Shown here piece after piece: positions 3,200-30,893 of a DNA stretch of 35,178 bases. The notes under the pieces were generated by a model. That model had not been told where the DNA came from. It saw only the letters and a list, made by a program, of their open reading frames with translations, and ran no database searches. The position numbers and the translations under genes are program-made. Position 1 is the first letter of the stretch, and the number at the start of each line of letters is the position of its first letter. The stretch comes from Ignavibacteriota bacterium (lineage in GTDB: Bacteria > Bacteroidota > Ignavibacteria > Kapaibacteriales > UBA2268): the NCBI GenBank assembly GCA_016219595.1, contig JACRLY010000080.1:1-35178 (forward strand). Direction: 5' to 3'.

Positions 3200-4333
3200 A
3201 TGGGTTGTATTATTAAGAATCAAAGAAAATCTATTTTCAGATTATTTTTAAGTGTATTAACTTTAAGTTTTATTTTTTCTTTTTATTATTCTTCATATAT
3301 TATTGTTGACAGGTATATTTCAGAAATAAGCTCAAATGTTATAATTACAGCTATTGTCAGACAGGATGTTCCGGATGATTCGGTAAAGTTAACATTAAAG
3401 AATATAAAATCTTTTTATTGGGTGAATAAGGCATTTCTTATTAAACCGGAAAAAGGATTGATAAGAACCGACAGTACAATTGGTGGAATTTCTCAAGACT
3501 TACTACCGGAAAACCCTCTGCCATCCTTAATCAATGTTTCAATTAAACAAAACTATCTTAATAGATTCAACCTTGCTAAATATAATCTGCTAATTAAAAG
3601 AATAGATGCTGTTGACAGTACTATATTACGCAAGAATTTTGCCGATACAGTGTTTTTAATAAAAAATCAATATTCTGTTTTATCTTTGATTATAGGGATA
3701 ATATTAGGACTAATCGTAATCTTTATCACATTTTTATCTTTGAATCCGGAATTTATTAGTCTCAAATTATCTATAACGTACAAAACCGGAATAAAAAATT
3801 ACAATCAATTATCAAAAGCAATACTTGGATTGATGTCTGTGGTGGTTTCAATAAGTATTGCCATCTCTTCAGGAATTTTATACCTTCTTTGGTATTTGAC
3901 TGTGGAAGAACTTAGCTGGTTTTCCGATACACATTGGCAGGTATTAGTATTGAATTTCTGTTTTGTGATACTGTTGTTCGGTATAATTTATTTGATATTA
4001 TACCTGGTAAATGAACCTAAAAGAATCATTAATGAAAATGTTCCGATAAATAATGAAAGTATTGAGGAGATTATAATCACTGATGATACAGTTGCAGAAC
4101 CAACAAATATTGAAATTGCAGAATTAACTGAAAATAAAGAAATCCAAAAAAATGGTGACATAATTGAAGATGAAGTTGAAGCTACAATTCCTGAAAAAGA
4201 CGAAATCGCTGAAAATGTTGAAATAGAAAACACCAGTGATATTCAGATTGAGGAAATAACAGCAAATAAAGAGAATGAAAATACTGTTACAGAAAACATT
4301 AAAGTAGAAAACTGGGAAGATGACATTACTTGA
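3200..4333 (+). CDS. FtsX-like permease-domain membrane protein with acidic C-terminal extension
   Basis: N-terminal TM, extracytoplasmic domain ('NVIITAIVRQDVPDDSVKLTLKNIKSFYWVNKAFLIKPEKG'), then three hydrophobic segments, matching FtsX topology; then about 105 residues rich in E/N/I/T. Confidence 0.6.
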   Translation: MGCIIKNQRKSIFRLFLSVLTLSFIFSFYYSSYIIVDRYISEISSNVIITAIVRQDVPDDSVKLTLKNIKSFYWVNKAFLIKPEKGLIRTDSTIGGISQDLLPENPLPSLINVSIKQNYLNRFNLAKYNLLIKRIDAVDSTILRKNFADTVFLIKNQYSVLSLIIGIILGLIVIFITFLSLNPEFISLKLSITYKTGIKNYNQLSKAILGLMSVVVSISIAISSGILYLLWYLTVEELSWFSDTHWQVLVLNFCFVILLFGIIYLILYLVNEPKRIINENVPINNESIEEIIITDDTVAEPTNIEIAELTENKEIQKNGDIIEDEVEATIPEKDEIAENVEIENTSDIQIEEITANKENENTVTENIKVENWEDDIT

Positions 4334-5402
4334 CAAATACATTTTAAAGCAGATAACTATTACATTGCTGTTCTCATTAATAGCATTGTGTATAATATTT
4401 GTTATTGTGAATCTATTAGAAAGTCTTGACGAGTTTCTTGACCAGGATGCAACATTTTTTACTATATTTAAATATTATATATATTTTCTGCCTGAAATCC
4501 TGAAGCTTCTGACACCGGTTGCAATGTTGATTTCCACCTTGTTTTCAATCGGAAGACTTTCATCGAATAATGAAGTTATAGCTATGAAATCGGGAGGAAT
4601 AAGCCTTTACAGGATAATGATGCCTGTGGCATTTTTCAGTGTGATATTAAGTTTTGCACAATTATATTTCAACGGATGGGTAGTTCCGGCTGCTAATGAA
4701 AAGAAAATTGATATAGAAAGGAAATACTTAAATAAAGCAGCAGGCGGAGGGCAGATTTTCAATCTTTATTTCAGGGATAATCCTGAACGAAATATTGTTA
4801 TGCAGTACTATGATGCAGACATGAAAACAGGAAATAAGATTGCAGTCGAAGAGTATACAAGCCAGTCTGAACCAAGATTAACAAAGAGAATAGAAGCAGA
4901 CAAAATCAGATGGGATTCTTCCAAATCGGTCTGGAAAATCATAAATGGTATTGAAAGGAATTATTCCGGCGGGGCTGTTGATACAAAGCGTTTCGATACT
5001 ATAAATTATTCAATAAATCTGACTCATAATCAAATTATCGAGCTGAAACGTTCTACAGATGAAATGAATTATGATGAACTTTGGAATTATATAACGATTC
5101 TCAAAAGGGGTGGCAAAGATGTAAGGAAGCAGGTTATTGAATATTATGGAAATTATGCATTTCCTTTTGCAAATTTGATTGTAATATTATTCGGAGTTCC
5201 ATTTGCTTCAATCCGAAAAAAGGGTGGTCTTGCTATCCAGATGGGTGCGGCAATGGTTATTTCATTCCTCTATCTTGTTTTTACTAAAGTCGGGCAGACT
5301 ATAGGTTATTCTTCCGATATAAATCCGGTTTTTGCAGGTTGGATGGCAAATATTATATTTTTTATATTTGCATTAGTCAATCTATTTAGAACAAGGACTT
5401 AA
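4320..5402 (+). CDS. LptF/LptG family (YjgP/YjgQ) permease
   Basis: 'MTLLDKYILKQITITLLFSLIALCIIFVIVNLLESLDEFL...LLTPVAMLISTLFSIGRLSSNNEVIAMKSGGISLYRIMMP', a conserved LptF/G N-terminus; C-terminal TMs. Overlaps the previous CDS by 14 bp. Confidence 0.9.
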   Translation: MTLLDKYILKQITITLLFSLIALCIIFVIVNLLESLDEFLDQDATFFTIFKYYIYFLPEILKLLTPVAMLISTLFSIGRLSSNNEVIAMKSGGISLYRIMMPVAFFSVILSFAQLYFNGWVVPAANEKKIDIERKYLNKAAGGGQIFNLYFRDNPERNIVMQYYDADMKTGNKIAVEEYTSQSEPRLTKRIEADKIRWDSSKSVWKIINGIERNYSGGAVDTKRFDTINYSINLTHNQIIELKRSTDEMNYDELWNYITILKRGGKDVRKQVIEYYGNYAFPFANLIVILFGVPFASIRKKGGLAIQMGAAMVISFLYLVFTKVGQTIGYSSDINPVFAGWMANIIFFIFALVNLFRTRT

Positions 5403-5598: not shown

Positions 5599-6390
5599 AT
5601 GAAAAATATTGATACTCTTTCATCACTCGATGGCAGGGCAACCCTTGCTGAGGTTTATAATGAACTGAGATTCGAAAAACAGTTGTCCAATTTCTCTACA
5701 TTGTTGATTTGTTGGAGAATTTGTGTCAGGGAGAGGGAATTGTTCCGTTATGTAAAAAAAGATGTAACTGTTCTTCATCCTCTTGGAATCTTTTCAGGTA
5801 CAGGCCTGTGGATGGAAGAGATACTAAACAGGTACTACTTTACAACAATTAATTCCTTTGTATATTTTGGTGCTGCAATATTACTTGTGCTTATCGGATT
5901 AAGAAGATTTACCAATTATGTAAATCCCGATATCGTACTTGGAGGTGTAGCATTCGAAGCATTAATGCTGATTTTTATGTTTGTTGTAATGTTATTTACG
6001 CCGAGTGAGGAACTTGAGACATTAAAAGCAAGGACAAATGAAAATCAGAATACAATCGAAGACCTTATTGTTGAGGTAGGAGAAATAAGCAGGGATTTTG
6101 CAGCAGTGGTCGTTCAACTTGAAAAACTCTCTGATTCTTTCCAGGAAGTTTTGAAACAACAAAGCAATCTTACATTTTTAATCGGTAAACTTTCCGATAA
6201 TTATTCAGATGCTTCTGCACCCAATCCACAAATGCTCGAAATAATGAAAGAAACTAATTTTGCTTTGTCGGAATTTAAAAATACTGTTAACAACCTGAAT
6301 AATGCTGCAGAATTACTCAAAAGAGAAGAAATTGAAATTGCAGTCAGGAAAGAAGTAGAGAGGGTTTTAGTAAATAAGTTAACTCAATAA
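5599..6390 (+). CDS. two-TM protein with long cytoplasmic coiled coil; GldL/PorL-like (T9SS motor) candidate
   Basis: TM1 'FVYFGAAILLVLIGL', TM2 'VLGGVAFEALMLIFMFVVMLF' with a buried Glu (codon 120), ending in 'TPSEE', then a long coiled coil. Layout resembles GldL; immediately followed by a single-TM beta-rich protein (GldM-like). Confidence 0.5.
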   Translation: MKNIDTLSSLDGRATLAEVYNELRFEKQLSNFSTLLICWRICVRERELFRYVKKDVTVLHPLGIFSGTGLWMEEILNRYYFTTINSFVYFGAAILLVLIGLRRFTNYVNPDIVLGGVAFEALMLIFMFVVMLFTPSEELETLKARTNENQNTIEDLIVEVGEISRDFAAVVVQLEKLSDSFQEVLKQQSNLTFLIGKLSDNYSDASAPNPQMLEIMKETNFALSEFKNTVNNLNNAAELLKREEIEIAVRKEVERVLVNKLTQ

Positions 6391-6446
6391 ATTCTCAATT
6401 GGGAAGTTAGAATTCTGAATATAAATTTAGATATCTGATTAATAAA

Positions 6447-7943
6447 ATGAAATTAAGATATAGAAAAACGATAGAAATATATTTTGTTTTATATTTAGCA
6501 GCCTTGATTTTTCTATTGCCTTCACCTGAAGATGATAAAAAAAATTCTGATGAAAATAATTCAAAGGTATTTCAAATACCTTTTTCAATACAACCCGAGA
6601 AAACAACATTGAATTGCAGGCTGATACTTGATTCATCAGGTGTAAGGATAATGTCGATTGATTCTATGAACACGGTGATTTATTTCGGAGATGTCGAAAA
6701 TGTGGATTTTGAATTTACAATCGAAGACCCATTACTCAGGCAAAAACTTTTTTTGAAAAACGAGGAGGACACATCAAATCCATATTTCAGATTCGTTGCT
6801 AATAAGAAATCCCAGTCTGCTGTATTTTTCTGGAGTCCACCTATATTCGAAAGGGCAAATAAGACTTATAATGTGACGGTTACAGCGGTTGCCAGCCTGA
6901 AAGATGAAAAAAATGTTTCTGAAATAACTCAATCTTTCGAGACAAATAGAATAATAAAAGCTCAGACAAAATTCACCCTGAATATGATATATATGAATGC
7001 CGATTTAGTTGCAAATGGTACAGGGCTTCAACAGAATCCTAATGAAGCAGGTAACAGATTTAATGGTCAAAATCAAATATTTACAGGATTTCAACCTTCC
7101 GGTGAAATTGATATAAAATCTGAACAGGGTTTCATCAGGTCATTTGCCTATAATAAATGGACAAATATTATTAATATATACGGCGGTACTTTTGGGAATG
7201 ATGTAATAAAATATAATTTGCAGTCAAAACCTGATTATGATGATAATGGGGGAACTGCTTCGATTTTGAAAGTGGAACAAAATAGAATTATAATTGGAGG
7301 TATTACCCCTTCTTATGGTAAATTAAAAGTTCTGTTTACTGCTATTTCAAAATATGATAAAAAGGAAAGAAGTGTGGATTTTGTTGTAGTAACTGAAAAA
7401 TTTCAAACTCCGGTTTTCGACAAAACAATGTATCCCGAGAAGACTTATACTATAGACCCTAAAATCCCATTAATGTTAGGCAAAGATATTAAAGCAATGA
7501 TTAAGGATGCGCAATCTGTAAGAGTCCAAAGCGAACAGGGTAATATTTTCCAGTTTACACCCGATTTAAGCGATACAGATAAAATTTTCACTCTCGAATG
7601 TTACATTGATAATAATTTATTAGGGCAGAAATATCAAATCAAAGTATTGAATTATCCAAATCCTGAAATTAAGGATGTTCAGTATATAAGAAATGGTGAA
7701 GTAAATATCATTACATATTCTTATGGTAAATATAACTCAAAAGATAATGTATCGGATATTTTAGTAGAAGGTAATGCTATTGTTCGTGAATTAAGGGGTA
7801 AGACACCTGAGTCTCCTGATAATATAACGCACGTACAGATATTCAGGTGTACACCGAGAAATCAGTCTCAACCATTTTCATTCAGAATTTATGCAATTGA
7901 TTCCCGAGGAAAGAAATCCTCGCCAAAGAATTATGAAGAATAA
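6447..7943 (+). CDS. single N-terminal TM plus large periplasmic beta-rich domains; GldM/PorM-like candidate
   Basis: Short cytoplasmic N-terminus 'MKLRYRKTIEIYFVLYLAALIFLLP', then about 460 residues of predominantly beta-type periplasmic sequence; position directly 3' of the GldL-like gene. Confidence 0.45.
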   Translation: MKLRYRKTIEIYFVLYLAALIFLLPSPEDDKKNSDENNSKVFQIPFSIQPEKTTLNCRLILDSSGVRIMSIDSMNTVIYFGDVENVDFEFTIEDPLLRQKLFLKNEEDTSNPYFRFVANKKSQSAVFFWSPPIFERANKTYNVTVTAVASLKDEKNVSEITQSFETNRIIKAQTKFTLNMIYMNADLVANGTGLQQNPNEAGNRFNGQNQIFTGFQPSGEIDIKSEQGFIRSFAYNKWTNIINIYGGTFGNDVIKYNLQSKPDYDDNGGTASILKVEQNRIIIGGITPSYGKLKVLFTAISKYDKKERSVDFVVVTEKFQTPVFDKTMYPEKTYTIDPKIPLMLGKDIKAMIKDAQSVRVQSEQGNIFQFTPDLSDTDKIFTLECYIDNNLLGQKYQIKVLNYPNPEIKDVQYIRNGEVNIITYSYGKYNSKDNVSDILVEGNAIVRELRGKTPESPDNITHVQIFRCTPRNQSQPFSFRIYAIDSRGKKSSPKNYEE

Positions 7944-15278: not shown

Positions 15279-18254
15279 ATGAAAAATTTTTCCTCCTTTT
15301 ATATTTATTTATCTGTTTTCATTCTCGCTTCATTTATACATCAAATCGCATCAGCACAGTATTTACTCTCAGTTAATAAATTACCGTCTTGGCTAACTCA
15401 AGAAAATACTATTGAAAAAAAATTGGAATCTCCGATTGAAATGGCACCAAGAAATGCTAATCCAATGTCAGGTGAATATTATCAGAAAGCAATAGAACAC
15501 TTAAAAAATATGCCGGATGAAAATATAAATTCTAAAAATAAAAATGCTCAAATACAATCAATAACTCAATGGCAATCTATTACTGCTACAAGAGTACCTC
15601 TGAAAGATAACCCCAACATTGCCGCACATGGTAGAATCAGAACTCTATATTGGTTCCTTAATTCTTCCAATCCTTCGGGCAGTATTTGGGAATCTTATAT
15701 AGGTGCCAGTAGTGGCGGAATTTGGAAAAAATCATGGAACAGACCTGACAGCTGGTGGTATTCTTATGGAGATAAATTACCTAATCCTTCTGTTGGAGCC
15801 TTATGTGTTTATCACGATTACATTCGCGGTGATGTAATATATGCTGGTACGGGTGACTGGGAAAGATTCAATGGTGCCGGACTTTTTATGTCTACCGACC
15901 AGGGATCTTCGTGGAATAAAATTCCACTTATGGACGGTACAAATGAAGTCATTCCCACTGCAATAACTTCAATCATTAGAAAAGAAAATTACGGTTCTCC
16001 TGATACTATGTATGTTGCCACCGATATGGGTTTCTTCAGGTCTGCTTACGGTGGCACAACCGGATTTACGAGGATACCCATTGTTGCGGAACCCAATTGG
16101 GGTATTTTTGCTATGGTTAAAAATCCTGTCAGTCAGAATATATTATATGCATCTTTACCTTACAGGGGTATTTACAAAACTACAAATTGGGGTAGCACAT
16201 GGTTTCCAGTTAATAATGGATTACCCGATATGAGTAAAACCGGCAGGACTATGTCTTTGGCTATCAGCCAAAGTAATCCCCAGGTTTTATATGTTGCTGT
16301 TACTGATACAAACAGCGATATTCAAGGCGTATTTATCACTACTAACGGTGGTGACATTTGGACAAGAACAAATGCTCCGAATGATATTTCAATTGCCGGG
16401 CAGGCTTTCCATGCAAATGCAATTGCTGTTCATCCTTCGGATTGGAGAATTGCTTATGTAGGTTCTGTAAATTGTTATATAACCAGGAATGCGGGACAAA
16501 ACTGGGACAGGATAGATCCCGGTCATTCAGATATAACGGGATTTTATTTTCTCCCGAACAATCCAAATACGGTTATCATAACAAGCGATGGCGGAGTATT
16601 CATTCGTGATGACAGCAGAAATACAATCCAAAACACTTCTGAAAATTTTTCAGGTGGTGTGCCGCTACAGGAGTATGGGATGGACTATGCTGTAAGTGAG
16701 CCAAACATGATGATTGCCGGAACTCAGGACAATGGAACGATGGTTTCAACAACAGCTTCAGTATCTTCCACAAAAAATTGGACTGAATTTTACGGTTGTG
16801 ACGGAGCTAATTATGTTTACATAGACCCTGTAAATTCAAACTACGCATATTTTAATTCCTGGTGCGGTGAAACTAATCCAAGATTCAGAACACCCAACAA
16901 AGGTATCAATGTTGATGATATTAACAGCGGATTGGCAATGGTTTATTATTCACCTATTGGGATGAATAAATTCAACACAAATTATATTTTTACATATACT
17001 AATCAAGCTGTTTACTTTTCATCCAATCGTGGTAACGATTGGAGAAGAATCAATAACCTTTCGATGGATTTTACTGCAGGACAATTTCCGAAGGAAGCAC
17101 CAGCCGGATTAGCCGTAAGTAATGGTGCCGGAACTAATCCTGTATTATATGTTTGTTTTTGGAAACCTAAACCTTCCGACGTTATTCCTTCGGAGCCGAA
17201 TCCTGAAAGAAAAATTTTCGTTTCTGAGGGTGTACCTGGTTCCATGATTAACAGAATATCTTATCTTCCTGATTTATCTACTGTCAGGGCTGTAATTGCT
17301 GATAACTGGAATCCAAATATAGCATACGCTTTTCCTGAAGCACCTGTTTTCAAATTATTTAAAACATCAGACAGGGGATTGACCTGGAACAATATTTCAG
17401 GTAGCCGGCCCGATTCCTCACTACCGCCGGCGAATGTGAATTATGCTGTTTCTGTTCCCGGTGATGCAAATACAATTTTTGCAGGAACTGATGTCGGAAT
17501 GTTTAAAACCTCGAATAATGGTTCAACTTGGCAGAAATACCAATACGGCTTACCTATTGTACCAATAAATAATATTGTTTATATACCAACAGCCGGTAAT
17601 GATTTACTTAAAATTGGAACTTTCGGCAGAGGATTTTGGGAAAGGATTATTGATGGTGATGACCCTAATTGGACTCCTGCACCTACTGTAATTCGGAGAG
17701 AAAATCGATGTCCAGATTCTTTGATTTATTGCCGTTTATATTGGTCTATTATTCATTTGAGGGCACTCGACAATCCTGTCTGGAGAATTCCTCCCGGCTG
17801 TTTCATGGTTGCTAACGGACAAGGTACAATTGAAAGGTCATTTGATGCCGGTCAGACCTGGGAAATGTTCCAGTTGCCAACAAAGGAAAATATTACTTCA
17901 ATTGCGCCTCTTAGCGAATCTGGTGCTTTTGCTGTAGGAGAAGAAGGCGGTATGTTCATTACAAAAGACTATGGGCAGACCTGGAATCAAGTACAAACGC
18001 AATATAATGTGCCTCTACTTTCAGTTGCATTTTCATCTTTCAACGATGGTTACATTGTCGGTCAGGACGGATTATTATTAAGAAGCAACGATGGAGGAAA
18101 TTCATGGTCGGAATTTATGAATGACCCGGTAAAAACTTTTAGTCAAATATATTTTGTTAATTCCGGCTTAGGTTTTATTGCTGGAATGGATAATAAATCA
18201 AAGCCTGCTACTCCATTTATGCTTAGAACAAATGATGGTGGTAAATCATGGTAA
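15279..18254 (+). CDS. secreted BNR/VPS10-like and Ycf48-repeat beta-propeller protein, upstream fragment ending at an in-frame TAA
   Basis: Signal peptide 'MKNFSSFYIYLSVFILASFIHQIASAQ'; repeated 'TSDRGLTWNNIS', 'SNNGSTWQKYQYGLP', 'NDGGNSWSEF' motifs. Ends mid-repeat at 'NDGGKSW*'; homologous repeats continue in the same frame. Confidence 0.85.
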   Translation: MKNFSSFYIYLSVFILASFIHQIASAQYLLSVNKLPSWLTQENTIEKKLESPIEMAPRNANPMSGEYYQKAIEHLKNMPDENINSKNKNAQIQSITQWQSITATRVPLKDNPNIAAHGRIRTLYWFLNSSNPSGSIWESYIGASSGGIWKKSWNRPDSWWYSYGDKLPNPSVGALCVYHDYIRGDVIYAGTGDWERFNGAGLFMSTDQGSSWNKIPLMDGTNEVIPTAITSIIRKENYGSPDTMYVATDMGFFRSAYGGTTGFTRIPIVAEPNWGIFAMVKNPVSQNILYASLPYRGIYKTTNWGSTWFPVNNGLPDMSKTGRTMSLAISQSNPQVLYVAVTDTNSDIQGVFITTNGGDIWTRTNAPNDISIAGQAFHANAIAVHPSDWRIAYVGSVNCYITRNAGQNWDRIDPGHSDITGFYFLPNNPNTVIITSDGGVFIRDDSRNTIQNTSENFSGGVPLQEYGMDYAVSEPNMMIAGTQDNGTMVSTTASVSSTKNWTEFYGCDGANYVYIDPVNSNYAYFNSWCGETNPRFRTPNKGINVDDINSGLAMVYYSPIGMNKFNTNYIFTYTNQAVYFSSNRGNDWRRINNLSMDFTAGQFPKEAPAGLAVSNGAGTNPVLYVCFWKPKPSDVIPSEPNPERKIFVSEGVPGSMINRISYLPDLSTVRAVIADNWNPNIAYAFPEAPVFKLFKTSDRGLTWNNISGSRPDSSLPPANVNYAVSVPGDANTIFAGTDVGMFKTSNNGSTWQKYQYGLPIVPINNIVYIPTAGNDLLKIGTFGRGFWERIIDGDDPNWTPAPTVIRRENRCPDSLIYCRLYWSIIHLRALDNPVWRIPPGCFMVANGQGTIERSFDAGQTWEMFQLPTKENITSIAPLSESGAFAVGEEGGMFITKDYGQTWNQVQTQYNVPLLSVAFSSFNDGYIVGQDGLLLRSNDGGNSWSEFMNDPVKTFSQIYFVNSGLGFIAGMDNKSKPATPFMLRTNDGGKSW

Positions 18255-18323
18255 AATGTAATTGACATTCCTACCGATTTAATAATTAATAAAGTATTTT
18301 TTACATCCGAAACCAATGGCTTT

Positions 18324-18962
18324 ATGCTTGGTAACGGAGGATTTCTAAGGCAAACATTCGATGGTGGAGCCAATTGGGAGAACTACGGTTACAATGAAGC
18401 AAAATCAGATTTATTTGATATTGGATTCAAAACTCAGGAAGAGGGATTTATCACAGGAGCAAACGGACTGATAATGAGAACTACTGACGGCGGTAAAAAT
18501 TGGTACAAGGAAGAAACTCAGACAAGCGACAATTTTTATAATATCGTAGCCGATACAAACAATGTGATAGCTATAACTGATACGGTATTATATAAGAGAA
18601 ATTACCTGAATAACAGGGAAACTTATGGTCAGGCTCTCATTCATTGGGTGAATCCTGATTATGATACATTAAAAATTACTGATGTTCATGATATCGATGG
18701 AGTAATCAATGCTCTCGAAGTATATCCTAATCCTGTTAATTCTGTTTTAAATCTTAAATTTTCAAATTCCGGTGCAATTGATGCTGAAATCAGGATTGTG
18801 AATTTAATTGGAAATGAATTAAAACTTTATAAAGAAAAATGTCAAACTCAGGGAACTTACCTTTTCAGTTACAATTTGAGTGATTTAGATAATGGAATTT
18901 ACTTTATTCATCTCAAAACAAAATATGGAACTTTTGTGAAAAGAGTTGTTCTCATAAAATAA
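18324..18962 (+). CDS. downstream fragment of the same propeller protein carrying a type A T9SS C-terminal sorting domain
   Basis: Same frame as 15279 (difference 3045 = 3x1015). 'FDGGANWENYGYN...TTDGGKNWYKEE' continue the repeats; 'LEVYPNPVNSVLNLKFSNSG...LSDLDNGIYFIHLKTKYGTFVKRVVLIK' is a classic Por_Secre_tail-type CTD. Open frame actually resumes at 18255. Confidence 0.85.
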   Translation: MLGNGGFLRQTFDGGANWENYGYNEAKSDLFDIGFKTQEEGFITGANGLIMRTTDGGKNWYKEETQTSDNFYNIVADTNNVIAITDTVLYKRNYLNNRETYGQALIHWVNPDYDTLKITDVHDIDGVINALEVYPNPVNSVLNLKFSNSGAIDAEIRIVNLIGNELKLYKEKCQTQGTYLFSYNLSDLDNGIYFIHLKTKYGTFVKRVVLIK

Positions 18963-19993: not shown

Positions 19994-21988
19994 CTATTTC
20001 TCAGCTCCAAACCAATCATCAATCTTACTTTCTATATTTTTCTTATTCACACATGTTAATGCATAAAAACATGATTCGCCTACCGGTGCATTTTTATCTA
20101 AAAATGATTCGGTTTCTGATTTCAATGTAGTCACTAACACTGCATCTTTTTTCTCAGTCAGACGGTACAATCTGTATTCTTTTATATTTTCCTGCATTGT
20201 TTTATTCCATTTTAACATTACCCCTTCTTTTATTCGTGCAACATTCAAACTTGAAATTGATACTGGTCTGAAAACAGGTATCTCGATAATTGCCGGGGCA
20301 CTCAAATTACTTTTACTTGTACCTATTGAATACGATTCTACAGCATATAAATATGTTAAACCTTCTTCAGCGGTAGAATCCTCAAAATAATTCATAGAAT
20401 TATCTTCTGCTTTTCCATTTACGACAACAAATGATGTAGAATCACTTCCATCAGCTTTTAATATTTTTCTGTATAATTTATAACCGATAATATTTTTGTC
20501 AATTTCAGCCACATCTGACCATGTCAATAAGATACTTCCGAAATTATATTTTGCTCTGAGATTCAATGGTGTTTCTAATGAAATACTAATTTCCGGTGAA
20601 ACGAAAACCTTTTCTGAAAAAGGACTAATATCATAGCTTGTATTAGCCGATTTAACCGCATAAACCAAAGAAATGCTTTTGACATTTTTCAATGAATCTG
20701 TGAACTGTACATTCAGACTGTCGGTTAGAATTATATCGGTTATCTGGAGAAGAGTATCATTCTGAGTCATATCAGAACGGTAAACATAATAACCGCGTGT
20801 ATCAGCAGTCGGCTTTCTCCATTTGAGTGTTACAACTCCGTTTTTAGATACAGCTTGTAATTCCAAAGGTGGCTCTGCTTTTTTGACTGCACCAAGCATA
20901 CCGGTAATTCTTGCACTTGGAAGGCTTTGTCCATAAGCATTATTTATTATCAGGTAATAAAAATAAGTTGTAATTGGATTTACCTGGTTGTCAATAAACA
21001 TTGTATCACCTGGATTAGCACTGCCAATGCGATTGTATCCTTTGTCGTATTTATCACTTTTGTAAATATCAATACTCCTAAGAAACTCCGGTACATCGCT
21101 TTTCCAGCGAATTCTTATTGAGTTCAAACTATCAATACTTTCAGTGTGTAATGCTTTAATATAAGATTCTGCCTTGTTTATCAAATTTACAATTCTTATT
21201 GTATCTGATGCATTCCCGGGATTTCCATATAAATCATAAGGAATTGCATAATACTGATATATTTCTTTTTTATGTACTAAAGTATCAATAATTCCTATAT
21301 AAACACTGTCATGCCTGTTTGAAAACCCGACAAAAGGACCAATTTCTGCAAATTCGGTTTGCATATAATTACATCTGAATACCTTCACTCTCATCAATCC
21401 AATATGTTCAGGTGCATAGAATCTAAGATAAATCCTGTTTTCTTCAGGATTACTGTATATAGATTTCAATTTTAAATTCGGAATTACAGTATTATAATTT
21501 ATAGGTTTTAATGTACTGATTTTATCTGATTCATTTGTTTTTGATATGATTACTTTATACTTGTAAGTATTACCTTTTTTGACATCTGTATCATAATATG
21601 CCGTTCCCAATGCCTCACGATACATTGGAAAACCACCGTAAAGGGGAACGGAGTCAACATCATTTGTCTTTATGATAAAATCCCAAATATTCTGTTTGAA
21701 TTTTTCTTCAGGCAATTCATAAACATTGTTATGTGCATTAATATTAACCAGATTTTGAAAAAAATCATCATAATTAGATTTGAACACAAGTAATTTGATT
21801 AACTTCCAATCTTCCCTGGCTTCATCAGTACGGAATATCTGATAAACAAAATCTCTTGGTATTTTATTTCCGCACATTATATATATTCCTTCAGGACCCG
21901 GAGCAAGGTAAGGATATTCAGGTTGTTGTGCAAAACATACACCAATGTTCATTATTATTGCAAACAATAGTAAATAATACTTCTTCAT
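19994..21988 (-). CDS. secreted fibronectin type III domain-rich protein
   Basis: Signal peptide 'MKKYYLLLFAIIMNIGVCFAQ'; repeated FN3-like segments 'PPLELQAVSKNGVVTLKWRKPTADTRGYYVYRSD', 'TPLNLRAKYNFGSILLTWSDVAEIDKNIIGYKLYRK', 'SSLNVARIKEGVMLKWNKTMQENIKEYRLYRL'. No T9SS CTD seen. Confidence 0.8.
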   Translation of the reverse strand: MKKYYLLLFAIIMNIGVCFAQQPEYPYLAPGPEGIYIMCGNKIPRDFVYQIFRTDEAREDWKLIKLLVFKSNYDDFFQNLVNINAHNNVYELPEEKFKQNIWDFIIKTNDVDSVPLYGGFPMYREALGTAYYDTDVKKGNTYKYKVIISKTNESDKISTLKPINYNTVIPNLKLKSIYSNPEENRIYLRFYAPEHIGLMRVKVFRCNYMQTEFAEIGPFVGFSNRHDSVYIGIIDTLVHKKEIYQYYAIPYDLYGNPGNASDTIRIVNLINKAESYIKALHTESIDSLNSIRIRWKSDVPEFLRSIDIYKSDKYDKGYNRIGSANPGDTMFIDNQVNPITTYFYYLIINNAYGQSLPSARITGMLGAVKKAEPPLELQAVSKNGVVTLKWRKPTADTRGYYVYRSDMTQNDTLLQITDIILTDSLNVQFTDSLKNVKSISLVYAVKSANTSYDISPFSEKVFVSPEISISLETPLNLRAKYNFGSILLTWSDVAEIDKNIIGYKLYRKILKADGSDSTSFVVVNGKAEDNSMNYFEDSTAEEGLTYLYAVESYSIGTSKSNLSAPAIIEIPVFRPVSISSLNVARIKEGVMLKWNKTMQENIKEYRLYRLTEKKDAVLVTTLKSETESFLDKNAPVGESCFYALTCVNKKNIESKIDDWFGAEK

Positions 21989-22056
21989 TTTTTACCTATC
22001 TATTATTTTTCTAGTTAATTTCTTAAATAACTTTTATCCACTAAATCCATTTGACC

Positions 22057-22088
22057 AGGTGGGAGATTTTAACCCAAATCTTCCACCT
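22057..22088. other. hairpin (AGGTGGGAGATTT / AAATCTTCCACCT) between the giant-protein and FN3-protein genes
   Basis: 13-bp arms with one wobble and a 6-nt loop (TAACCC); about 40 nt 3' of the 22127 stop on the minus strand; no U tract. Confidence 0.6.
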
Positions 22089-22126
22089 TTACAAAGTGAG
22101 GATTTATTTTTATCCAATTTTTTCAA

Positions 22127-25100
22127 TTACTCCACAACACTACTGCAGTTATTACTGCAGCTTCCGGTGCCTATATTGACATCAACACCTCCGGTACCAA
22201 CAGTAACGTCGGCTTTCAAACTGATAAATGGTTCAGTATCACTTCCTAATTCAAATATTGTTCCGTCACACCCTATCAAATAGGGTATCTTCTGTTCGAG
22301 TTTACCATAAATGTTAATACTTGCACATATACCAAAATTAATATCATCCGGATATGTGAATTCCAATTGTCCCTTTATGATTGCTTCTGCTTTTGCATAT
22401 AATGAAGTACAGGTTATTGCACTCAATTCTAATTCGGCAACTGCATACAACATTACTGATACACCTGCACTTATCGGTGATGCGAAATTAGCCCAGGCAG
22501 CAGCTTCCACACCTACTTCTAAGCTTACCGATGCACTCGCAATTACAAGGTTCACCGATTCATTGAATGTTAGTTGTGGTATGCTCTTCCTTCCCGTCAC
22601 AAAAAATCCGGCAAATGTTGTTGCATTCTCAAAAGCGCAGGGCAGTCCTTTCCCGATTGAATGACTTGTTACCATATCAAGTGTAGACTGTGGAATTCCA
22701 CCCATCTTGCCTCCTGCGTCATAAATCCCAATTAACAATCCCACGCTGAACACTCCAACAGGTGTTACCTCTGCCTCCGCCGCCGCAGCAAAATAAAATC
22801 CGTGCGGGTCTATGCAAATCTCAGCACATCCACTTATTTTAATCGGACCAATCTCCTTATCCTCGAAATTCAGAGTTCCGATAAACCTCGCATTCGGCAA
22901 ATCAAATGTCATTGTGAAATCACCGAATTCAGTGTTTGTTCCGGATGTAGTTATTTTCTGATTTTTTACATCCGCATCTGTTTTTATTTCTCCATAGACA
23001 GCAAGATTTAATGGCTTTGTCCCAAATCCCTTATCTGAGAAGCTACCTGCAGGATAAAGCTTCAATCTCAAAATATCCCAGTCATTGTTTTTCACCACCA
23101 TTCTCGAGCTGTCTACCCTGAATTTACCTCCTTGGGCACCACCCAGGTCAATGAACTGGTCTCCGACTCCCGGGTCCCTATCGATTCTAATTGTGATTAT
23201 ATTATTCACCTTTTTCTTATTCAGGATGATAAATATTGAATCCAATTTTCCGGGTTCTCTCACATGTCCGTAAAGTTTAAGGTCACGATTACTGATTAGC
23301 TGTTGATTATAATTAGCCCTCGATTCGAATTTAACATAACCCGGTGCATCGAATGTAATATCTGTTGGAAGCATCTCAACTTTTAAATTACCACTAGGTT
23401 TTGTAAACTTTAGCTTGTAAGTCAAATCATTAGCCACTCTTGGTATCTCAAAATCCATCAATCCGTCTATCTTAAACATATCGGCATAAGAGTATATTGC
23501 TAACGGTTTGAATGTAACTATATCATAAAATGGCATTTTTTCACAATCCGGTGAGAAACTGACTATCTGTTCACCGTCACTCAATAAACTGACTGCCTGT
23601 AATTTCAAATCTGACGCAAATCCCGGTAATCCCGGTACCTTAGCCGCTGGATTTCCTATGAATATCAACTTATAATGAGGCTTAAGGTCTAATCCGCATT
23701 TAGGGTCAAGTCCGAACTGGGCTGATTGAGGATTAGTCAGATTCATTTTACAAATGCCGCCCAAAGTTAATTGCGTTACATTCGGTTTTGCAATCGTTGA
23801 TGGTATATTTACTTCAATTAACGTGGTCGCCGGATTCTGCGGGTCTAATCTTATATTTGACCATGCGTGGGGGACAAGATAAATTATTCCCTGTGAATTA
23901 AGAGTGCTGTTCTCTATTTTCGAGTCGGCATCAAACTCCAAAAACTTGAATTTTAGTTTTTGCTGATTTGCATCTGTCAGATAATAAATTTTTCCTTGTT
24001 TGTACCAATTATATATTATCGAAAAATGTGCTGGATTTGTACAATCTTCAAATGATGTTATCATTTTATCATAAGTGCTATCTTTTGCTAAAGCCATATA
24101 AAACTGGTCATCCTGGAATCGGAAATAACTCCCCGGGAAATTAAATGAATTATCAACTATCCTTGCTTTAGAACTCAAATGTCCTCCAGTTAGTGAGTCC
24201 TTTACAACTTTCAGATAATTATTCCCTTGTCCACCTGCTGCCAATAAAACATTGTAGTTGAAAGTTTTGTTTCCCCATTCCAAATTTATTGTATTCGGTG
24301 GTGGGGACTTACCTTTTAATCTCACTTTCATTGATGGCAATGTTAGTGGAAATGTAGAACTCCCCGGCTGTGCTTCAAAATATGGCCTTCCCTTATCATC
24401 AAACTTATCTTTGCCCGGTCGCACAACCAGGTTCCCCAAACCTGCATATTGAGAACTGTCCAGCAGTTCAAAAGCATTTGCTGATTTACTGAAATCTATC
24501 AATCCGTTCAGTTCAAATTCACCGTTAAGTTTCTCAACTAATTTATGCACTTTAATATGAAATCCATGCAATCTCTGAAGATTCGCAACTTTAAATTCCT
24601 TCAATTCAAAATTACACTCATATACAAAACTCTGCCCCTTGTTAAATTCCACCTTCTTCTCTTCACCCGTTAAATTCGGATAGTCTATGTTCCCGTCAAT
24701 CACTGTCCCCGGTATTTGACCGGGTAAATTTATATTCCCTGAACTGTCCTTTGGCGGATTCTCATCAGGCGGCACGCACCTCATATTTATCCATGGCTTT
24801 TGAACATCATTCCCTTTTTGAGGATTTATCCCTTTAAGTGTGTAATTTCCATTAGCATCTGATTTAGTTTTCCTGATATTTGTATTGAATCCGTTAAGCA
24901 CATACACCATCGCATAAGGTACTGCCTTCCCCTCAACTGTAACTTTACCCTTCACTGTCATGCCTGGATTCAACAGGAAATGATAGGATTTGTAAACTTT
25001 TGATTCCTCATTCTGTATTTCAGTATTTACTGGTATTAAATCAGATGTATCAGGCGGCTCAATTTTTAACCAGAAATTTTTCATCGAGGCATTCTTAAAT

Positions 25101-25558
25101 ACAAAACTTGCCTGACCATTGCTGTTAGTTGTGTCTTCATAATCAAGTATTTTCACTATACAATTCGGAACCGGCTGTTTTGTATATGTGTTTGTCACAT
25201 CTATTATTATCCTGTGCTTTCTCTCCTTCACCACAATCTTACCCAAATAATAATTAGTCGTGTCATTCGGTAAATTCTGCAAAGCTGGGATCACAATTGT
25301 ATCATTAAAATACTTCAAATCCACAGGGTAAATATATAACGTGTCAGCATATCCTGTCGGCACTTTCACACTGAACTTTTGTCCTAACTCGGTAAAATAA
25401 ACATTTTGCATCTGCATGACCAAATTCTCATCGCTTTCCTCCTGCATCTCATTCAAATTCAGTTCCAAACTCATATTCATATTCGATTTCACCTGGGACT
25501 TCTTCTTCGTTTTCTTTGCATTGCTCATTTGTATATACTGCTGTTCCACCAAAGGCAC
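22127..25558 (-). CDS. downstream fragment of giant surface protein with carboxypeptidase regulatory-like domains and Cys-containing beta-rich C-terminal region
   Basis: ORF track start is GTG at 25558, directly after the in-frame TAA 25559-25561; first ATG 25528. 'GMTVKGKVTVEGKAVPYAMVYVLNGFNTNIRKTKSDANGNYTLKGI' is CarboxypepD_reg-like. No signal peptide. Confidence 0.75.
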   Translation of the reverse strand: MPLVEQQYIQMSNAKKTKKKSQVKSNMNMSLELNLNEMQEESDENLVMQMQNVYFTELGQKFSVKVPTGYADTLYIYPVDLKYFNDTIVIPALQNLPNDTTNYYLGKIVVKERKHRIIIDVTNTYTKQPVPNCIVKILDYEDTTNSNGQASFVFKNASMKNFWLKIEPPDTSDLIPVNTEIQNEESKVYKSYHFLLNPGMTVKGKVTVEGKAVPYAMVYVLNGFNTNIRKTKSDANGNYTLKGINPQKGNDVQKPWINMRCVPPDENPPKDSSGNINLPGQIPGTVIDGNIDYPNLTGEEKKVEFNKGQSFVYECNFELKEFKVANLQRLHGFHIKVHKLVEKLNGEFELNGLIDFSKSANAFELLDSSQYAGLGNLVVRPGKDKFDDKGRPYFEAQPGSSTFPLTLPSMKVRLKGKSPPPNTINLEWGNKTFNYNVLLAAGGQGNNYLKVVKDSLTGGHLSSKARIVDNSFNFPGSYFRFQDDQFYMALAKDSTYDKMITSFEDCTNPAHFSIIYNWYKQGKIYYLTDANQQKLKFKFLEFDADSKIENSTLNSQGIIYLVPHAWSNIRLDPQNPATTLIEVNIPSTIAKPNVTQLTLGGICKMNLTNPQSAQFGLDPKCGLDLKPHYKLIFIGNPAAKVPGLPGFASDLKLQAVSLLSDGEQIVSFSPDCEKMPFYDIVTFKPLAIYSYADMFKIDGLMDFEIPRVANDLTYKLKFTKPSGNLKVEMLPTDITFDAPGYVKFESRANYNQQLISNRDLKLYGHVREPGKLDSIFIILNKKKVNNIITIRIDRDPGVGDQFIDLGGAQGGKFRVDSSRMVVKNNDWDILRLKLYPAGSFSDKGFGTKPLNLAVYGEIKTDADVKNQKITTSGTNTEFGDFTMTFDLPNARFIGTLNFEDKEIGPIKISGCAEICIDPHGFYFAAAAEAEVTPVGVFSVGLLIGIYDAGGKMGGIPQSTLDMVTSHSIGKGLPCAFENATTFAGFFVTGRKSIPQLTFNESVNLVIASASVSLEVGVEAAAWANFASPISAGVSVMLYAVAELELSAITCTSLYAKAEAIIKGQLEFTYPDDINFGICASINIYGKLEQKIPYLIGCDGTIFELGSDTEPFISLKADVTVGTGGVDVNIGTGSCSNNCSSVVE

Positions 25559-28500
25559 TTAATTCAGATTTTTAATATCAAATTCTTTCAGGTACGCCGC
25601 CTGTTCTGTCTTAGTCATCTTCCCGTTCTTTGTCCTCACATAACATTCAACAGCTTTTCCTTCTTCATTTATAACATACCCGTAAACAGTACCCTTCGGC
25701 ATCATCAGCACCTGCGGAAAATGCATCTGCTGTCCCATCTTCAGCGATATTCCGCTCGGCACTGGCGGTATGCACTCCTTACTCGCTGACTGAGTTACTG
25801 TATCAACCGAACCCGTAAGCTTCGTCGCTCCATACAAATAATATCCCGGGCTATTAAATTTCAACCTGTACCTGTAATGATTTATATTATCATACTTCGC
25901 CGGCAAATTCTTAAACACAAAATAACCATTCTGATAAGCTTCACCCACAATCCTTACACATCCTCCTGTACCTGTATAAAGTCCCATGTCACTGTCATCA
26001 GATTTCTTCCCTGAATAAAGCATTACAATTCCAAAATTCACGCTACGCATCGCATTCGACGCATCCAGAACACGTCCGGATATTATTGGTTTCTTCGGCT
26101 CGAGGTAAACATTTATCGATAAGCTCACCGGCTTATAATCCTCTACAAACAAATAATCATACTCATTCCTGTAGTACACTTCTGCTAATTTTGCATTCAT
26201 CTGGCTTTCATAATTCTGCCACGCAACTTCTGCTTTGGCTGCATTTGAAAGGCTTCCAGCATGAGTATTCTCCCATGCCTCATCTATCTCCTTATTGTTC
26301 GAATACGCTGTATCCTTCTTCCAGTCATCATAACCACGGGGGAAATAAATAGTTCTTTTTTGGTAAGAATTTTCGCCAACAGTATCGCTTGTGCTTATTT
26401 CAATTTTATAGTCATCCCAATTCACATTCTTATTGTGCAAAAACAATCCCGTGAATCCTGCTCCCGTTTGCTTATCAACGTATTCTTCACCATGTAAATA
26501 ATTATCCCATCTCGTAATCTTCACAGTGCTACCGTATATCACTCCACCCGGTTCGCTCTGCTCCAGATTTTTAGGATTCTTTCTCGGCACTACATTCAGT
26601 TTATATGTCCTCTTGTATGCTATCAATGTTCCCACATCGACAGAGTCCAAAGGTTGTATAAGAATATCATTTGATGGATTATAAATATATTGCTTCGTGT
26701 AATCAATTACCACAACTCTCGTTGTCCTGTGAAGCTTACCGCTGTATCCGGCAACATTGCAAAACTCCCCGTTTCCTGTTCCGAAATTACCCGAACTCTG
26801 CCAACTGCCAAGTGAATCTATGTGAGCAAAATTCTTGAAAACAAATTTCCCTTCACCGTTTGTCGTCGTTGTTGCCAATAATGTATTCCCATCTCCGAAC
26901 GGTTTCGACAAATCTGCTTCCAGCTGTGCTGCCTGCTGTCCCGTATTAGTTACACTCACTGCATTATTATGTTCTTCAAGCACATGATATGGGTCGATTA
27001 TAGTCTTGTTACCATTATTATCTTCTACGTAATAGGTAACCATCAAACCGATTTGCCTGTAATTCATCGGCTTTATATTCGATTTCGGGTCACTGGGGTC
27101 TCGCGAAACCAATTGTCCTGAAACTGATGCTGTCGGCGGATTATTTGAAATAATTGTTGCTTTCTTATCTACCTTAAAATTATAAATTTGATTTATATAA
27201 TTATAGACAAGCACATATAAATTCGGTACAAATTTTTGTGAAGTCAGCCAATATTCACTCCAATTCTTCTTTACCTGACCATTAATAATTTCTTCCTGCC
27301 ACATATCAACAAGGTAATTATCCCCATTCATCCAATTGACAATCAGTTTATCAATAGTTACAATTGTATGTGCTTTACCATCGCTTCCAATCACCGTTTC
27401 AACTTTTCCCTGTGACACCTGTTTCATCTGGTATAATTCCTTCTTTGGGTCACCAGGCTCGATTTCACCCTCATAATAGGGTATCTCTGCCTTGCTTCCC
27501 ATACGGTATACACTTACTTTCACGTTCTGTGGATTCAGGTCTTTAAAATTTCCCTTATTATACCCTTTACTCACCTCAAACTTCAACTTGTAACTCCAAA
27601 CATAAGTCACAATTTTCCCTAAATTGATAGAATCTGCATTCAACTCTATTTTCTTATTAATTTCCAGATAATAAAAATTATTTATTAAAAGTACGTAATA
27701 TTCAAACAATCTTCCTTTCACCAAAGTCGCAGTATTTATATTACCGAATTTCTTATTCACCTGGTATTGCATGATTTTATTTAAATCCCCGCCATTCTTT
27801 GCTCCTACAATAGGTACACTGAAACTTCCATCCTCGTTCAATGTAACAGGTACATCTGCTTTACCCATCCCTTTATAATATAAATTCTGGTCAATGCTGT
27901 CAGCTATTATCTCATTTGTAACTGTATCCCTAATCATAAGGAATCTCTTTAGTTTAACTCCGGGAGAATTGACCGGGTATTCATCCGTATAATGCTGGAA
28001 CCTGTACATCAGTTGCCCGTTTATATTATATACATTCTCAGGTAAATCAAGGTAAGCATAATCAGCATTAATTGTGTCTAAAGCATATTTCTGTGCTGTC
28101 GAATCGGGCAAATTTAAATTAGTATTTTTCAACACATCGAACTGTTTAAAATCAACACTCATCGAATTAATGAAATGAACTTTATATTTTATAAATGCAG
28201 TGTCGCTCTGTTTTGCAGTATTATTTTTCCAAAGCACATAAAAATTCTTTTTATTATTAACTTCTATTTTCGGAGTTTCTCCAATCGAACCGGCTTCTTT
28301 ACACGTTGGAATTATAATATCAATACCTTTTTCAATATTTGATGCAGTAGTATCCGGTGTATGAGGAGTTTCAACAGTTTTATATATGAATTTCCATGCC
28401 TCGCTCACTCCCGCATTTTTAAACATTACATTATTCGCCGGGTCTCGTGCAACAACTCTCCATGCGTATGTCTCCCCGTTTAAAAAGGTCGGGTCATTAG

Positions 28501-29266
28501 GAAAGGCCACATAATTTGTAGTTGGTAAATCCTTTTCAAAATAAAATTGTGATGTGCTGTACATAACTGCATTCGGATTATCTGCCGGATTAACCATCTT
28601 TGCAATTTGCAGTTTATATAATGTTCCCAATGGTGCAGTAGGGGAGCCAATCCATGTAAAAATCACTGGATTAGCAACGCTTATACTCTTCAATGTATCC
28701 TCATTTGCCGGCTGTATCAATATCGGCGGTTCAGGATATTGTATTGAAATATTCTGACAAGCATCTTCCGATACCGGTTCACCTGTGTTATAATCATACG
28801 CTCGGTAACATACATCATATATCCCTTCCGGCAGCGAGCCAGACCTCATCAGCTTCTCTCTTTCGATACCTACTATATCGAGGTCCCTTACATCAAATAA
28901 ATTTCTTAACTGTACACCTGAAATTGTTGTCGGAATATTCGGTTGCAATATAATCGGTGTTAATGGTTTATGCCCGGGTTTTGTCGAAATTATGATACCA
29001 TTGTCAACTCCCTTAATCATTCCTCCAAGCTTTATTTCCCGGTTTACCTGGTCAGTATTAACAAGTATCAGAAATGTATTATTTTTCCCCTCGAAATAAT
29101 CCGAAAAATATGGAGAATAAGGGGGTACAATATTTAATGTAATTGTTACTACATTGTTTTGGGCTTGTGTGTTTATATTGAATAATAAGAATAGTAACAC
29201 AAATCCTAAATGCATCATTAAGTCCGAAGGATGAGAATAAAATGATTTAATATATCCCTTTGTCAT
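25559..29266 (-). CDS. upstream fragment of giant secreted protein with FN3/Ig-like and carboxypeptidase regulatory-like domains
   Basis: Hydrophobic N-terminal segment 'LMMHLGFVLLFLLFNINTQAQNN' (signal peptide); 'PPILIQPANEDTLKS...FTWIGSPTAPLGTLYKLQIAKM' FN3-like; ends '...GTVYGYVINEEGKAVECYVRTKNGKMTKTEQAAYLKEFDIKNLN*'. Confidence 0.8.
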   Translation of the reverse strand: MTKGYIKSFYSHPSDLMMHLGFVLLFLLFNINTQAQNNVVTITLNIVPPYSPYFSDYFEGKNNTFLILVNTDQVNREIKLGGMIKGVDNGIIISTKPGHKPLTPIILQPNIPTTISGVQLRNLFDVRDLDIVGIEREKLMRSGSLPEGIYDVCYRAYDYNTGEPVSEDACQNISIQYPEPPILIQPANEDTLKSISVANPVIFTWIGSPTAPLGTLYKLQIAKMVNPADNPNAVMYSTSQFYFEKDLPTTNYVAFPNDPTFLNGETYAWRVVARDPANNVMFKNAGVSEAWKFIYKTVETPHTPDTTASNIEKGIDIIIPTCKEAGSIGETPKIEVNNKKNFYVLWKNNTAKQSDTAFIKYKVHFINSMSVDFKQFDVLKNTNLNLPDSTAQKYALDTINADYAYLDLPENVYNINGQLMYRFQHYTDEYPVNSPGVKLKRFLMIRDTVTNEIIADSIDQNLYYKGMGKADVPVTLNEDGSFSVPIVGAKNGGDLNKIMQYQVNKKFGNINTATLVKGRLFEYYVLLINNFYYLEINKKIELNADSINLGKIVTYVWSYKLKFEVSKGYNKGNFKDLNPQNVKVSVYRMGSKAEIPYYEGEIEPGDPKKELYQMKQVSQGKVETVIGSDGKAHTIVTIDKLIVNWMNGDNYLVDMWQEEIINGQVKKNWSEYWLTSQKFVPNLYVLVYNYINQIYNFKVDKKATIISNNPPTASVSGQLVSRDPSDPKSNIKPMNYRQIGLMVTYYVEDNNGNKTIIDPYHVLEEHNNAVSVTNTGQQAAQLEADLSKPFGDGNTLLATTTTNGEGKFVFKNFAHIDSLGSWQSSGNFGTGNGEFCNVAGYSGKLHRTTRVVVIDYTKQYIYNPSNDILIQPLDSVDVGTLIAYKRTYKLNVVPRKNPKNLEQSEPGGVIYGSTVKITRWDNYLHGEEYVDKQTGAGFTGLFLHNKNVNWDDYKIEISTSDTVGENSYQKRTIYFPRGYDDWKKDTAYSNNKEIDEAWENTHAGSLSNAAKAEVAWQNYESQMNAKLAEVYYRNEYDYLFVEDYKPVSLSINVYLEPKKPIISGRVLDASNAMRSVNFGIVMLYSGKKSDDSDMGLYTGTGGCVRIVGEAYQNGYFVFKNLPAKYDNINHYRYRLKFNSPGYYLYGATKLTGSVDTVTQSASKECIPPVPSGISLKMGQQMHFPQVLMMPKGTVYGYVINEEGKAVECYVRTKNGKMTKTEQAAYLKEFDIKNLN

Positions 29267-29306
29267 AAACCACCTTTATATTAATTTATTTTTTTCATGT
29301 TATCAT

Positions 29307-30893
29307 TTAAAAATTATATATGTAGCCAACACTGCTCCTGTATTCGGTAAAACTCGGATTAGTTCCGCTCAAACGCGAATCAATCAAATTCACGTCAAAC
29401 CTTACATTGTGTGAATTTGCTAATTGATATGAGCTCTGTATTGTAGCTGTAGTCGTTGCTCCCGAACTAACACCGTTAACATTTTGAATCTGGTAGCCAA
29501 CCGAACCACCAATATTGATTGAACTTAAAGTCCAATTCAATTGAACAATCGGACCAATAAACAAACTCTTCGAATTTGCCATCGTTGACTGAACTGCATT
29601 AATATTTAATCCATAACTAATTCCCGATTTAATCAATACAGTCTGATAGGTGAGTGTTCCCGTTAAATTCTGAGTCTCTGTAGTTCCTGCAGTTTTTTTA
29701 TTAAGGTCATTTAAGGTTTGGTATCCTCCCATCAATAAAATATTATGAACTGCCGATTCCCCTGACATTGTAATTCTAAAAACAGAATTGAAATTATGAT
29801 TTACCCTCGATACTTTCATAGAATCTACAAATGGAATTGTATCTATCCTGGGAAATATTTTTCTTGTTTGGGCTATCCCGTAGCTCGAATACCTCAAATC
29901 TATACCATAGCTCTGCTTCTGATGAGACAAATCGATTGAGCCGATTATTCTGTTCGATGTGTATGTTTTTGTTTTCATTAGATTATCATTTTGAATCCCA
30001 ATGCTTCCGCTTACTCTCAATAAATTATCAAAAACAGTGAAATATGGTGACAATGTTATATTTTCAACATCCGATTCCATGTAATAAATACCCATTGATT
30101 TATAATCAGGGTCAATCCTCTTGTATGCAAGCCTCAAGCTGAATCCTTTTCCCCTGTATGTTAATCCGGTTTGAAATGCAGTAGTTAATTGTGTAGATGT
30201 CCTCACATTATAAATACTCTGAAATTGCTTCAAAATTCCACTGCTCGTCGAATCGTTTATTGCAGACGCCCTCGTGTCAAGTGTATATACACTACCTGCC
30301 GCATCAATATCCATACTCAAAAACGAAAACGGTGAGAATCTGCTCGTTAATCCCAATACCATATTCTCTGCAGGCTTATATAACACACCAGTGGTGTCAA
30401 CACTTCTCAAATAATTTGTATCAATCGAATTAAAATCATCCTTTGCTCTTAGCAATATCAAATCGCAATAATCAGTCTGAGTTCCAAGACCGAATTTAAC
30501 TGCATATCCCATTCTCTCAAATGTTGGGGCAATCATTCGGGTTGACGATGAATCTCCTACTGTCGCTTTCAGGAATCTCCCATACATAGCACCAAACCTG
30601 AAAATGCTAGGATTAAGCTCGATTCCTCCTCCTAGAAAAGTGTGTCCCGACAATGTAAAAGGCGAATAACTCAGATTTCTCCAGCCGGCATGAGCTGTAA
30701 TCCATTTATATTTGGGACTAACTCCATATTGATTAAATGGCTGGATAAAACTCCTGTTTTGCTCACTGATTGTCGCCGAAAACGGAAATGATATGCCGAA
30801 CAAATTAATTGTAAATGAGCCGACCAGGGAATAGTCAAATGGCTTGTATCGGGCATCCATACCTCCTGATATTCCATAATGGCTCAAATTCAA
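29307..30893 (-). CDS. outer-membrane beta-barrel-like protein, apparently 5'-truncated (no signal peptide)
   Basis: Amphipathic beta strands throughout and aromatic C-terminal ending '...SSVGYIYNF*' typical of OM barrels. ORF track start is TTG; coding-like sequence continues upstream in frame ('IADDKIITASGSIG') to a TAG. Confidence 0.7.
   Translation of the reverse strand: MNLSHYGISGGMDARYKPFDYSLVGSFTINLFGISFPFSATISEQNRSFIQPFNQYGVSPKYKWITAHAGWRNLSYSPFTLSGHTFLGGGIELNPSIFRFGAMYGRFLKATVGDSSSTRMIAPTFERMGYAVKFGLGTQTDYCDLILLRAKDDFNSIDTNYLRSVDTTGVLYKPAENMVLGLTSRFSPFSFLSMDIDAAGSVYTLDTRASAINDSTSSGILKQFQSIYNVRTSTQLTTAFQTGLTYRGKGFSLRLAYKRIDPDYKSMGIYYMESDVENITLSPYFTVFDNLLRVSGSIGIQNDNLMKTKTYTSNRIIGSIDLSHQKQSYGIDLRYSSYGIAQTRKIFPRIDTIPFVDSMKVSRVNHNFNSVFRITMSGESAVHNILLMGGYQTLNDLNKKTAGTTETQNLTGTLTYQTVLIKSGISYGLNINAVQSTMANSKSLFIGPIVQLNWTLSSINIGGSVGYQIQNVNGVSSGATTTATIQSSYQLANSHNVRFDVNLIDSRLSGTNPSFTEYRSSVGYIYNF

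Follow-up and report, generated by a model that had tools for sequence, protein, structure and literature searches.

A divergent GldL/GldM-like gene pair as the probable T9SS motor of a Bacteroidota order

Main finding

Two adjoining genes of an Ignavibacteriota bacterium, found in a stretch of 35,178 nucleotides (contig JACRLY010000080.1, positions 1 to 35,178; here termed the window), probably encode the inner-membrane T9SS motor of this Bacteroidota order. Judged from their sequences, the products, here termed GL and GM, are likely to be divergent homologues of GldL and GldM that would form a proton-driven ring of GL around a GM dimer. The pair is best read as having a conserved extra N-terminal domain in GL, whereas GM would have a replaced first periplasmic domain and a TM helix that begins with an invariant acidic residue; it is a variant of the known motor, not a new kind of motor. 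The proposal of a divergent GldLM pair, made in the first-pass annotation, is largely supported by profile-profile matches, the failure to find canonical gldL and gldM in the order, the universal presence of SprA and contiguity with PorU in one genome (G059).

GL is a membrane hairpin protein with a conserved N-terminal extension

The features of GL are as follows.

5599..6390, + strand: GL, GldL-like membrane protein of 263 aa (ORF, conservation, profile-profile comparison)
5599..5820, + strand: extra conserved N-terminal segment, approximately residues 1-74, presumably cytoplasmic (conserved from residue 1)
5848..5910, + strand: TM1, approximately residues 84-104, with Y89, G91, A92 and R102 (hydropathy)
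5926..6003, + strand: TM2, approximately residues 110-135 (hydropathy)
5956..5958, + strand: GAA codon of Glu120, inside TM2 and aligned to GldL Glu49 (sequence and profile alignment)
6004..6384, + strand: helical/coiled-coil C-terminal tail, residues 136-262 (coiled-coil matches, predicted helix)

Hydropathy indicates two neighbouring TM segments, at approximately residues 80-105 and 108-139, arranged as a membrane hairpin; with the GAA codon and the coiled-coil matches of the helical tail, this bears out the original description of two adjacent TM segments, a glutamate within the second and a long coiled coil. Within the tail, residues 171-240 are predicted as a helix at block pLDDT values of 72-86 in a single-sequence AlphaFold model, whose overall quality was too low for fold comparison. 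Full-length GL is present in 54 of 55 genomes from the same family as the source, at identities down to 38%, a count that includes a few copies split or cut at contig ends; the exception (G014) was matched through paralogues only. Glu120 is invariant in all aligned rows with a residue at that position, and G12, R13, G63, G67, W71 and E74 are invariant in the N-terminal segment. Because relatives of 38-40% identity align from residue 1, this extension is considered genuine, although it comprises about 70-80 residues before TM1 instead of the approximately 90 first reported. A misplaced start codon was ruled out, residues 1-74 being conserved.

Direct HMM scans found no Pfam or NCBIfam family match for GL, and neither TIGR03513 (cut-off 68.3 bits) nor PF22827, the models of GldL/PorL, matched GL or anything else in its own genome. 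When its profile was searched against PDB sequences, coiled coils alone were found, including GldL (7sax) within the GL tail.

Profile comparison relates GL to GldL

A profile of 83 GL-type hairpins was compared with that of 51 GldL proteins from the phylum using hhalign, giving an alignment of the two hairpins over 53 columns without gaps, with a probability of 75.5, an E value of 2.4e-5 and a score of 27.4, in which Glu120 falls on Glu49. The hhalign probabilities are moderate, those for GL alone against GldL being 65-75% across comparisons; the significance of this match and of that found for GM leans on shuffle controls. The observed score was reached by none of 1000 shuffles in which TM columns and loop columns were kept apart, their maximum of 26.2 lying near the observed value, and the reversed profile scored 10.6.

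The alignment sets Y89, R102 and E120 of GL opposite Y13, K27 and E49, residues of Flavobacterium johnsoniae GldL whose mutation impairs the motor (PMC9127263, PMC8986121). Y89, G91 and A92 are each present in 57/58 rows of the GL alignment and R102, an arginine in place of lysine, in 45/58, while E49 is found in 51/51 GldL sequences. GL has a spacing of 18 between the basic residue (K27 or R102) and the glutamate, as do the GldL proteins that lack a short loop insertion seen in Flavobacterium.

GL therefore shares with GldL/PorL (TIGR03513, PF22827) a TM hairpin carrying a Y...GA...[KR]...E pattern with the glutamate in TM2, as well as a long helical cytoplasmic tail and an adjoining gldM-like gene. 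By contrast, it falls below detection by the family HMMs, possesses the extra conserved residues before TM1, has no glutamate at the ungapped equivalent of GldL Glu59, a residue used in gliding, and is encoded outside a gldKLMN cluster. The lack of gldK or gldN beside the pair, remarked upon at first pass, is evident from the neighbouring genes and agrees with the distribution of GldN described below.

GM resembles GldM in its D2-D3 region

The features of GM are as follows.

6447..7943, + strand: GM, GldM-like single-TM periplasmic protein of 498 aa (ORF, conservation, profile-profile comparison)
6462..6527, + strand: TM helix, residues 6-27, with the motif RK-x-x-E-I-Y-F-x-L-Y-L-x-A-L (alignment, hydropathy)
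6474..6476, + strand: codon of Glu10, at the start of the TM helix (glutamate in 55 of 56 sequences, aspartate in the other)
7137..7664, + strand: approximately residues 231-406, aligned to GldM D2-D3 (profile-profile alignment)

The single TM helix and beta-rich body accord with the earlier description of the protein following GL. GM is found in 60/61 genomes across the order, the sole exception being an 88%-complete genome; position 10 is acidic in every one of the 56 aligned sequences, and the basic residues 6-7 are conserved. The first periplasmic part, approximately residues 30-230, has a beta-rich look in the alignment; a single-sequence AlphaFold model, with a pLDDT of 34, was too poor for use. 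As for GL, no Pfam or NCBIfam family was matched in direct HMM scans, TIGR03517 matched neither GM nor anything else in its own genome, and the GM profile had no match among PDB sequences.

Profiles of 56 GM and 52 GldM sequences were aligned by hhalign with a probability of 54.7 and a score of 44.0, residues 231-406 of GM lying on approximately 240-400 of GldM. An earlier comparison using small alignments had returned a probability of 3.4, larger sequence pools being needed. None of 200 shuffles scored as high: local shuffles averaged 17.5 (sd 3.8) and peaked at 27.4, global shuffles peaked at 26.7, and the reversed profile gave 20.4. The match lies about 7 sd over the null and outside any TM segment. 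The aligned span of GM approximates residues 233-405 of GldM, the published extent of D2 (233-320) and D3 (321-405) (PMC5790014). The TM parts match weakly (E 0.018), D1 and D4 of GldM were not recognised in GM by profile alignment, and the last 90 residues of GM have no recognised partner. Taken together, comparison with the known families was negative by direct HMM scans for both proteins and positive by profile-profile alignment with shuffles, for GL with GldL and for GM with D2-D3 of GldM.

GM and GldM/PorM (TIGR03517) hence have in common a single N-terminal TM helix and the D2-D3-aligned region at matching positions. They differ in that residues 30-230 of GM are seemingly beta-rich, whereas D1 of GldM (32-232) is helical, and in that canonical GldM has an invariant Arg9, with no clear equivalent in GM, close to the position at which GM has its invariant Glu10. 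Divergent GldM forms of 380-399 aa, apparently without a helical D1, are found in other Bacteroidota lineages (L169:5259-6401 and L170:5007-6206, from genomes G183 and G357); these are too short for a canonical D1, a domain also not recognised in GM, but unlike GM they are picked up by the canonical GldM profile itself. The L170 gene adjoins that of a divergent GldL and an ORF that may be GldN-like.

Genomic context and distribution

The neighbouring genes with domain matches that bear on the pair are as follows.

4320..5402, + strand: LptG/LptF permease, upstream of GL, as also in G059 (domain match)
15279..18962, + strand: BNR-repeat T9SS cargo with Por_Secre_tail, with one in-frame stop near 18252 (domain match)

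LptF/G upstream, with an efflux set and T9SS cargo downstream, had been named as the setting of the pair, and all were confirmed; the Por_Secre_tail protein represents T9SS cargo in the pair's own genome. The cargo gene is divided between two same-frame ORFs, and may be a pseudogene or reflect an assembly error. Upstream of LptG, an FtsX-like permease (3200-4333, + strand; TIGR00439, E 5.8e-8) has an acidic C-terminal tail of approximately 100 residues, and four large ORFs of 664, 1143, 1235 and 528 aa occupy 19994-30893 on the - strand, the sole Pfam match among them being CarboxypepD_reg in the 1143-aa ORF.

By coordinates, GL and GM adjoin in approximately 43 of the 49 genomes in which both could be placed, and lie on different contigs in six (G016, G017, G021, G050, G060 and G068). 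In G059, LptG, GL, GM, a 437-aa GL paralogue and a PorU-type sortase (Peptidase_C25) follow one another contiguously on one strand, and the pair is therefore tied to the T9SS; this linkage to PorU is seen in one genome, and elsewhere is via a paralogue or absent.

SprA_N was detected in 41/41 genomes of the order, including the source, and SprA co-occurs with GL/GM throughout. Canonical GldM was found in 0/41, as was GldN, for which the same model recovered 4/4 canonical positive controls. Canonical GldL was found in none of the sampled genomes of the order; within a draw of 299 genomes from the phylum it was present in 71 and GL-type matches in 36, with both above cut-off in 0/299. A search for canonical gldKLMN elsewhere, suggested in the first-pass annotation, accordingly recovered no gldL, gldM or GldN in the order. 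Neither the lack of recognised canonical motor genes nor the occurrence of GL can be separated from phylogeny, and since phylogeny alone would also produce this distribution, it constitutes support, not proof.

Paralogues of GL and related genes in other orders

Genomes of the family usually encode two further hairpin proteins, approximately 330 and 450 aa long, in which the Y-GA-R-E pattern recurs. In the source genome, the larger is a 445-aa protein (G000:C110, L062:6886-8223, + strand) with two extra N-terminal TM segments by hydropathy, whose gene immediately precedes those of a 1926-aa PorU-type sortase and an outer-membrane protein weakly similar to the PorV family; in G064, PorU is likewise beside the approximately 450-aa paralogue and not GL. 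The smaller, of 336 aa, appears by alignment to share these extra segments and lies beside an rfbC-like gene (G000:C57, L061:5155-6165, - strand). At the loci examined, no GM-like neighbour was found for these paralogues, except that the 437-aa copy in G059 comes after GM.

GL-like proteins also occur in other orders of the class, where most are short (118-216 aa) and some are longer. Downstream of their genes come GM-like ORFs that have a single TM segment and a YFvLY motif, and after these further exported ORFs without a known family. Three such exported ORFs, of approximately 370, 505 and 465 aa, follow the pair in L160, L161 and L162, those of L161 having no Pfam family; they are candidate T9SS or envelope parts.

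It is conceivable, if rather doubtful, that GL with GM and the two paralogues, which would have the MotA order of TM1-TM2-cytoplasmic-TM3-TM4, form a three-part set of GldL-like rings, in which the paralogues might serve one T9SS motor as alternative stators and represent an intermediate linking GldL to MotA/ExbB, with Glu10 of GM supplying a second carboxylate.

Alternative explanations

The main rival interpretation is that GL-GM is a GldLM-related proton motor serving another envelope process, such as LPS export beside LptG or Tol-like maintenance, with the T9SS running on a different complex, perhaps that of the paralogue beside PorU. LptG directly upstream in both the window and G059 would fit such a role, as would the position of the 445-aa paralogue, instead of GL, beside PorU in the source genome and G064, and the lack of an adjoining T9SS gene at most GL-GM loci. 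However, recognisable similarity to GldM is confined to the GM partners of GL, with no separate GM-like neighbour beside the paralogues at the loci examined, while the gene run shared with PorU in G059 and the co-occurrence with SprA across the order also argue against this interpretation, which is considered unlikely.

Two further explanations would deny the relationship to GldLM itself. Weak profile signals from short TM segments, with GL alone giving the moderate probabilities noted above, might reflect a chance resemblance between hydrophobic helices of an unrelated membrane protein; yet the score exceeds all TM-aware shuffles, the functional residues coincide and the neighbouring GM independently matches GldM outside its TM segment, making coincidence scarcely credible. 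MotB and ExbD carry an acidic residue in their TM helix, and the invariant acidic residue of GM, together with the MotA-like four-TM order of the GL paralogues, could instead suggest a MotA/ExbB/TolQ-type stator with a MotB/ExbD/TolR-type partner, similar to GldLM only by convergence. These 5:2 motors do share with GL-GM a multi-TM ring protein, a single-TM partner and an ionisable TM residue, but there is no sequence or profile similarity: GL has no PF01618 match, three ordinary MotA_ExbB proteins are encoded separately in the same genome, and GM aligns with D2-D3 of GldM and matches no OmpA or ExbD domain. The hhalign score of GL against the ExbB/TolQ family (11.3, probability 0.1) is background, on which basis a MotA/ExbB origin of GL was rejected, and convergence is regarded as very improbable.

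Proposed mechanism and implications

In the proposed T9SS motor, hairpins of GL may surround the TM helices of a dimeric GM as a ring, presumably a pentamer if the analogy with GldLM applies. Protons would pass via Glu120, and Glu10, at the end of the GM helix that faces the cytoplasm, probably takes part as well. Movement of GM produced in this way would be transmitted through its D2-D3-like periplasmic domains towards the SprA/PorU outer-membrane apparatus. The conserved N-terminal segment of GL may serve to anchor the ring, as has been proposed of the tail of GldL. That such a ring assembles, uses protons, rotates and has a part in secretion is what we infer from the likeness to GldLM.

A literature search, with most subscription journals and all preprints outside its scope, found no description of a GldLM replacement in this group. 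If correct, the assignment would name the missing T9SS motor of a whole Bacteroidota order in which the SprA channel and the PorU sortase occur without recognisable GldLMN. It would also imply that such a motor must keep the TM2 glutamate, the GA, tyrosine and basic residues of TM1 and D2-D3, whereas the helical D1, Arg9 of GldM and the GldN partner are swappable parts. The conserved extra segment of GL is a testable candidate for anchoring the stator ring, and the MotA-like GL paralogues bear on the question of whether GldLM and MotAB share ancestry.
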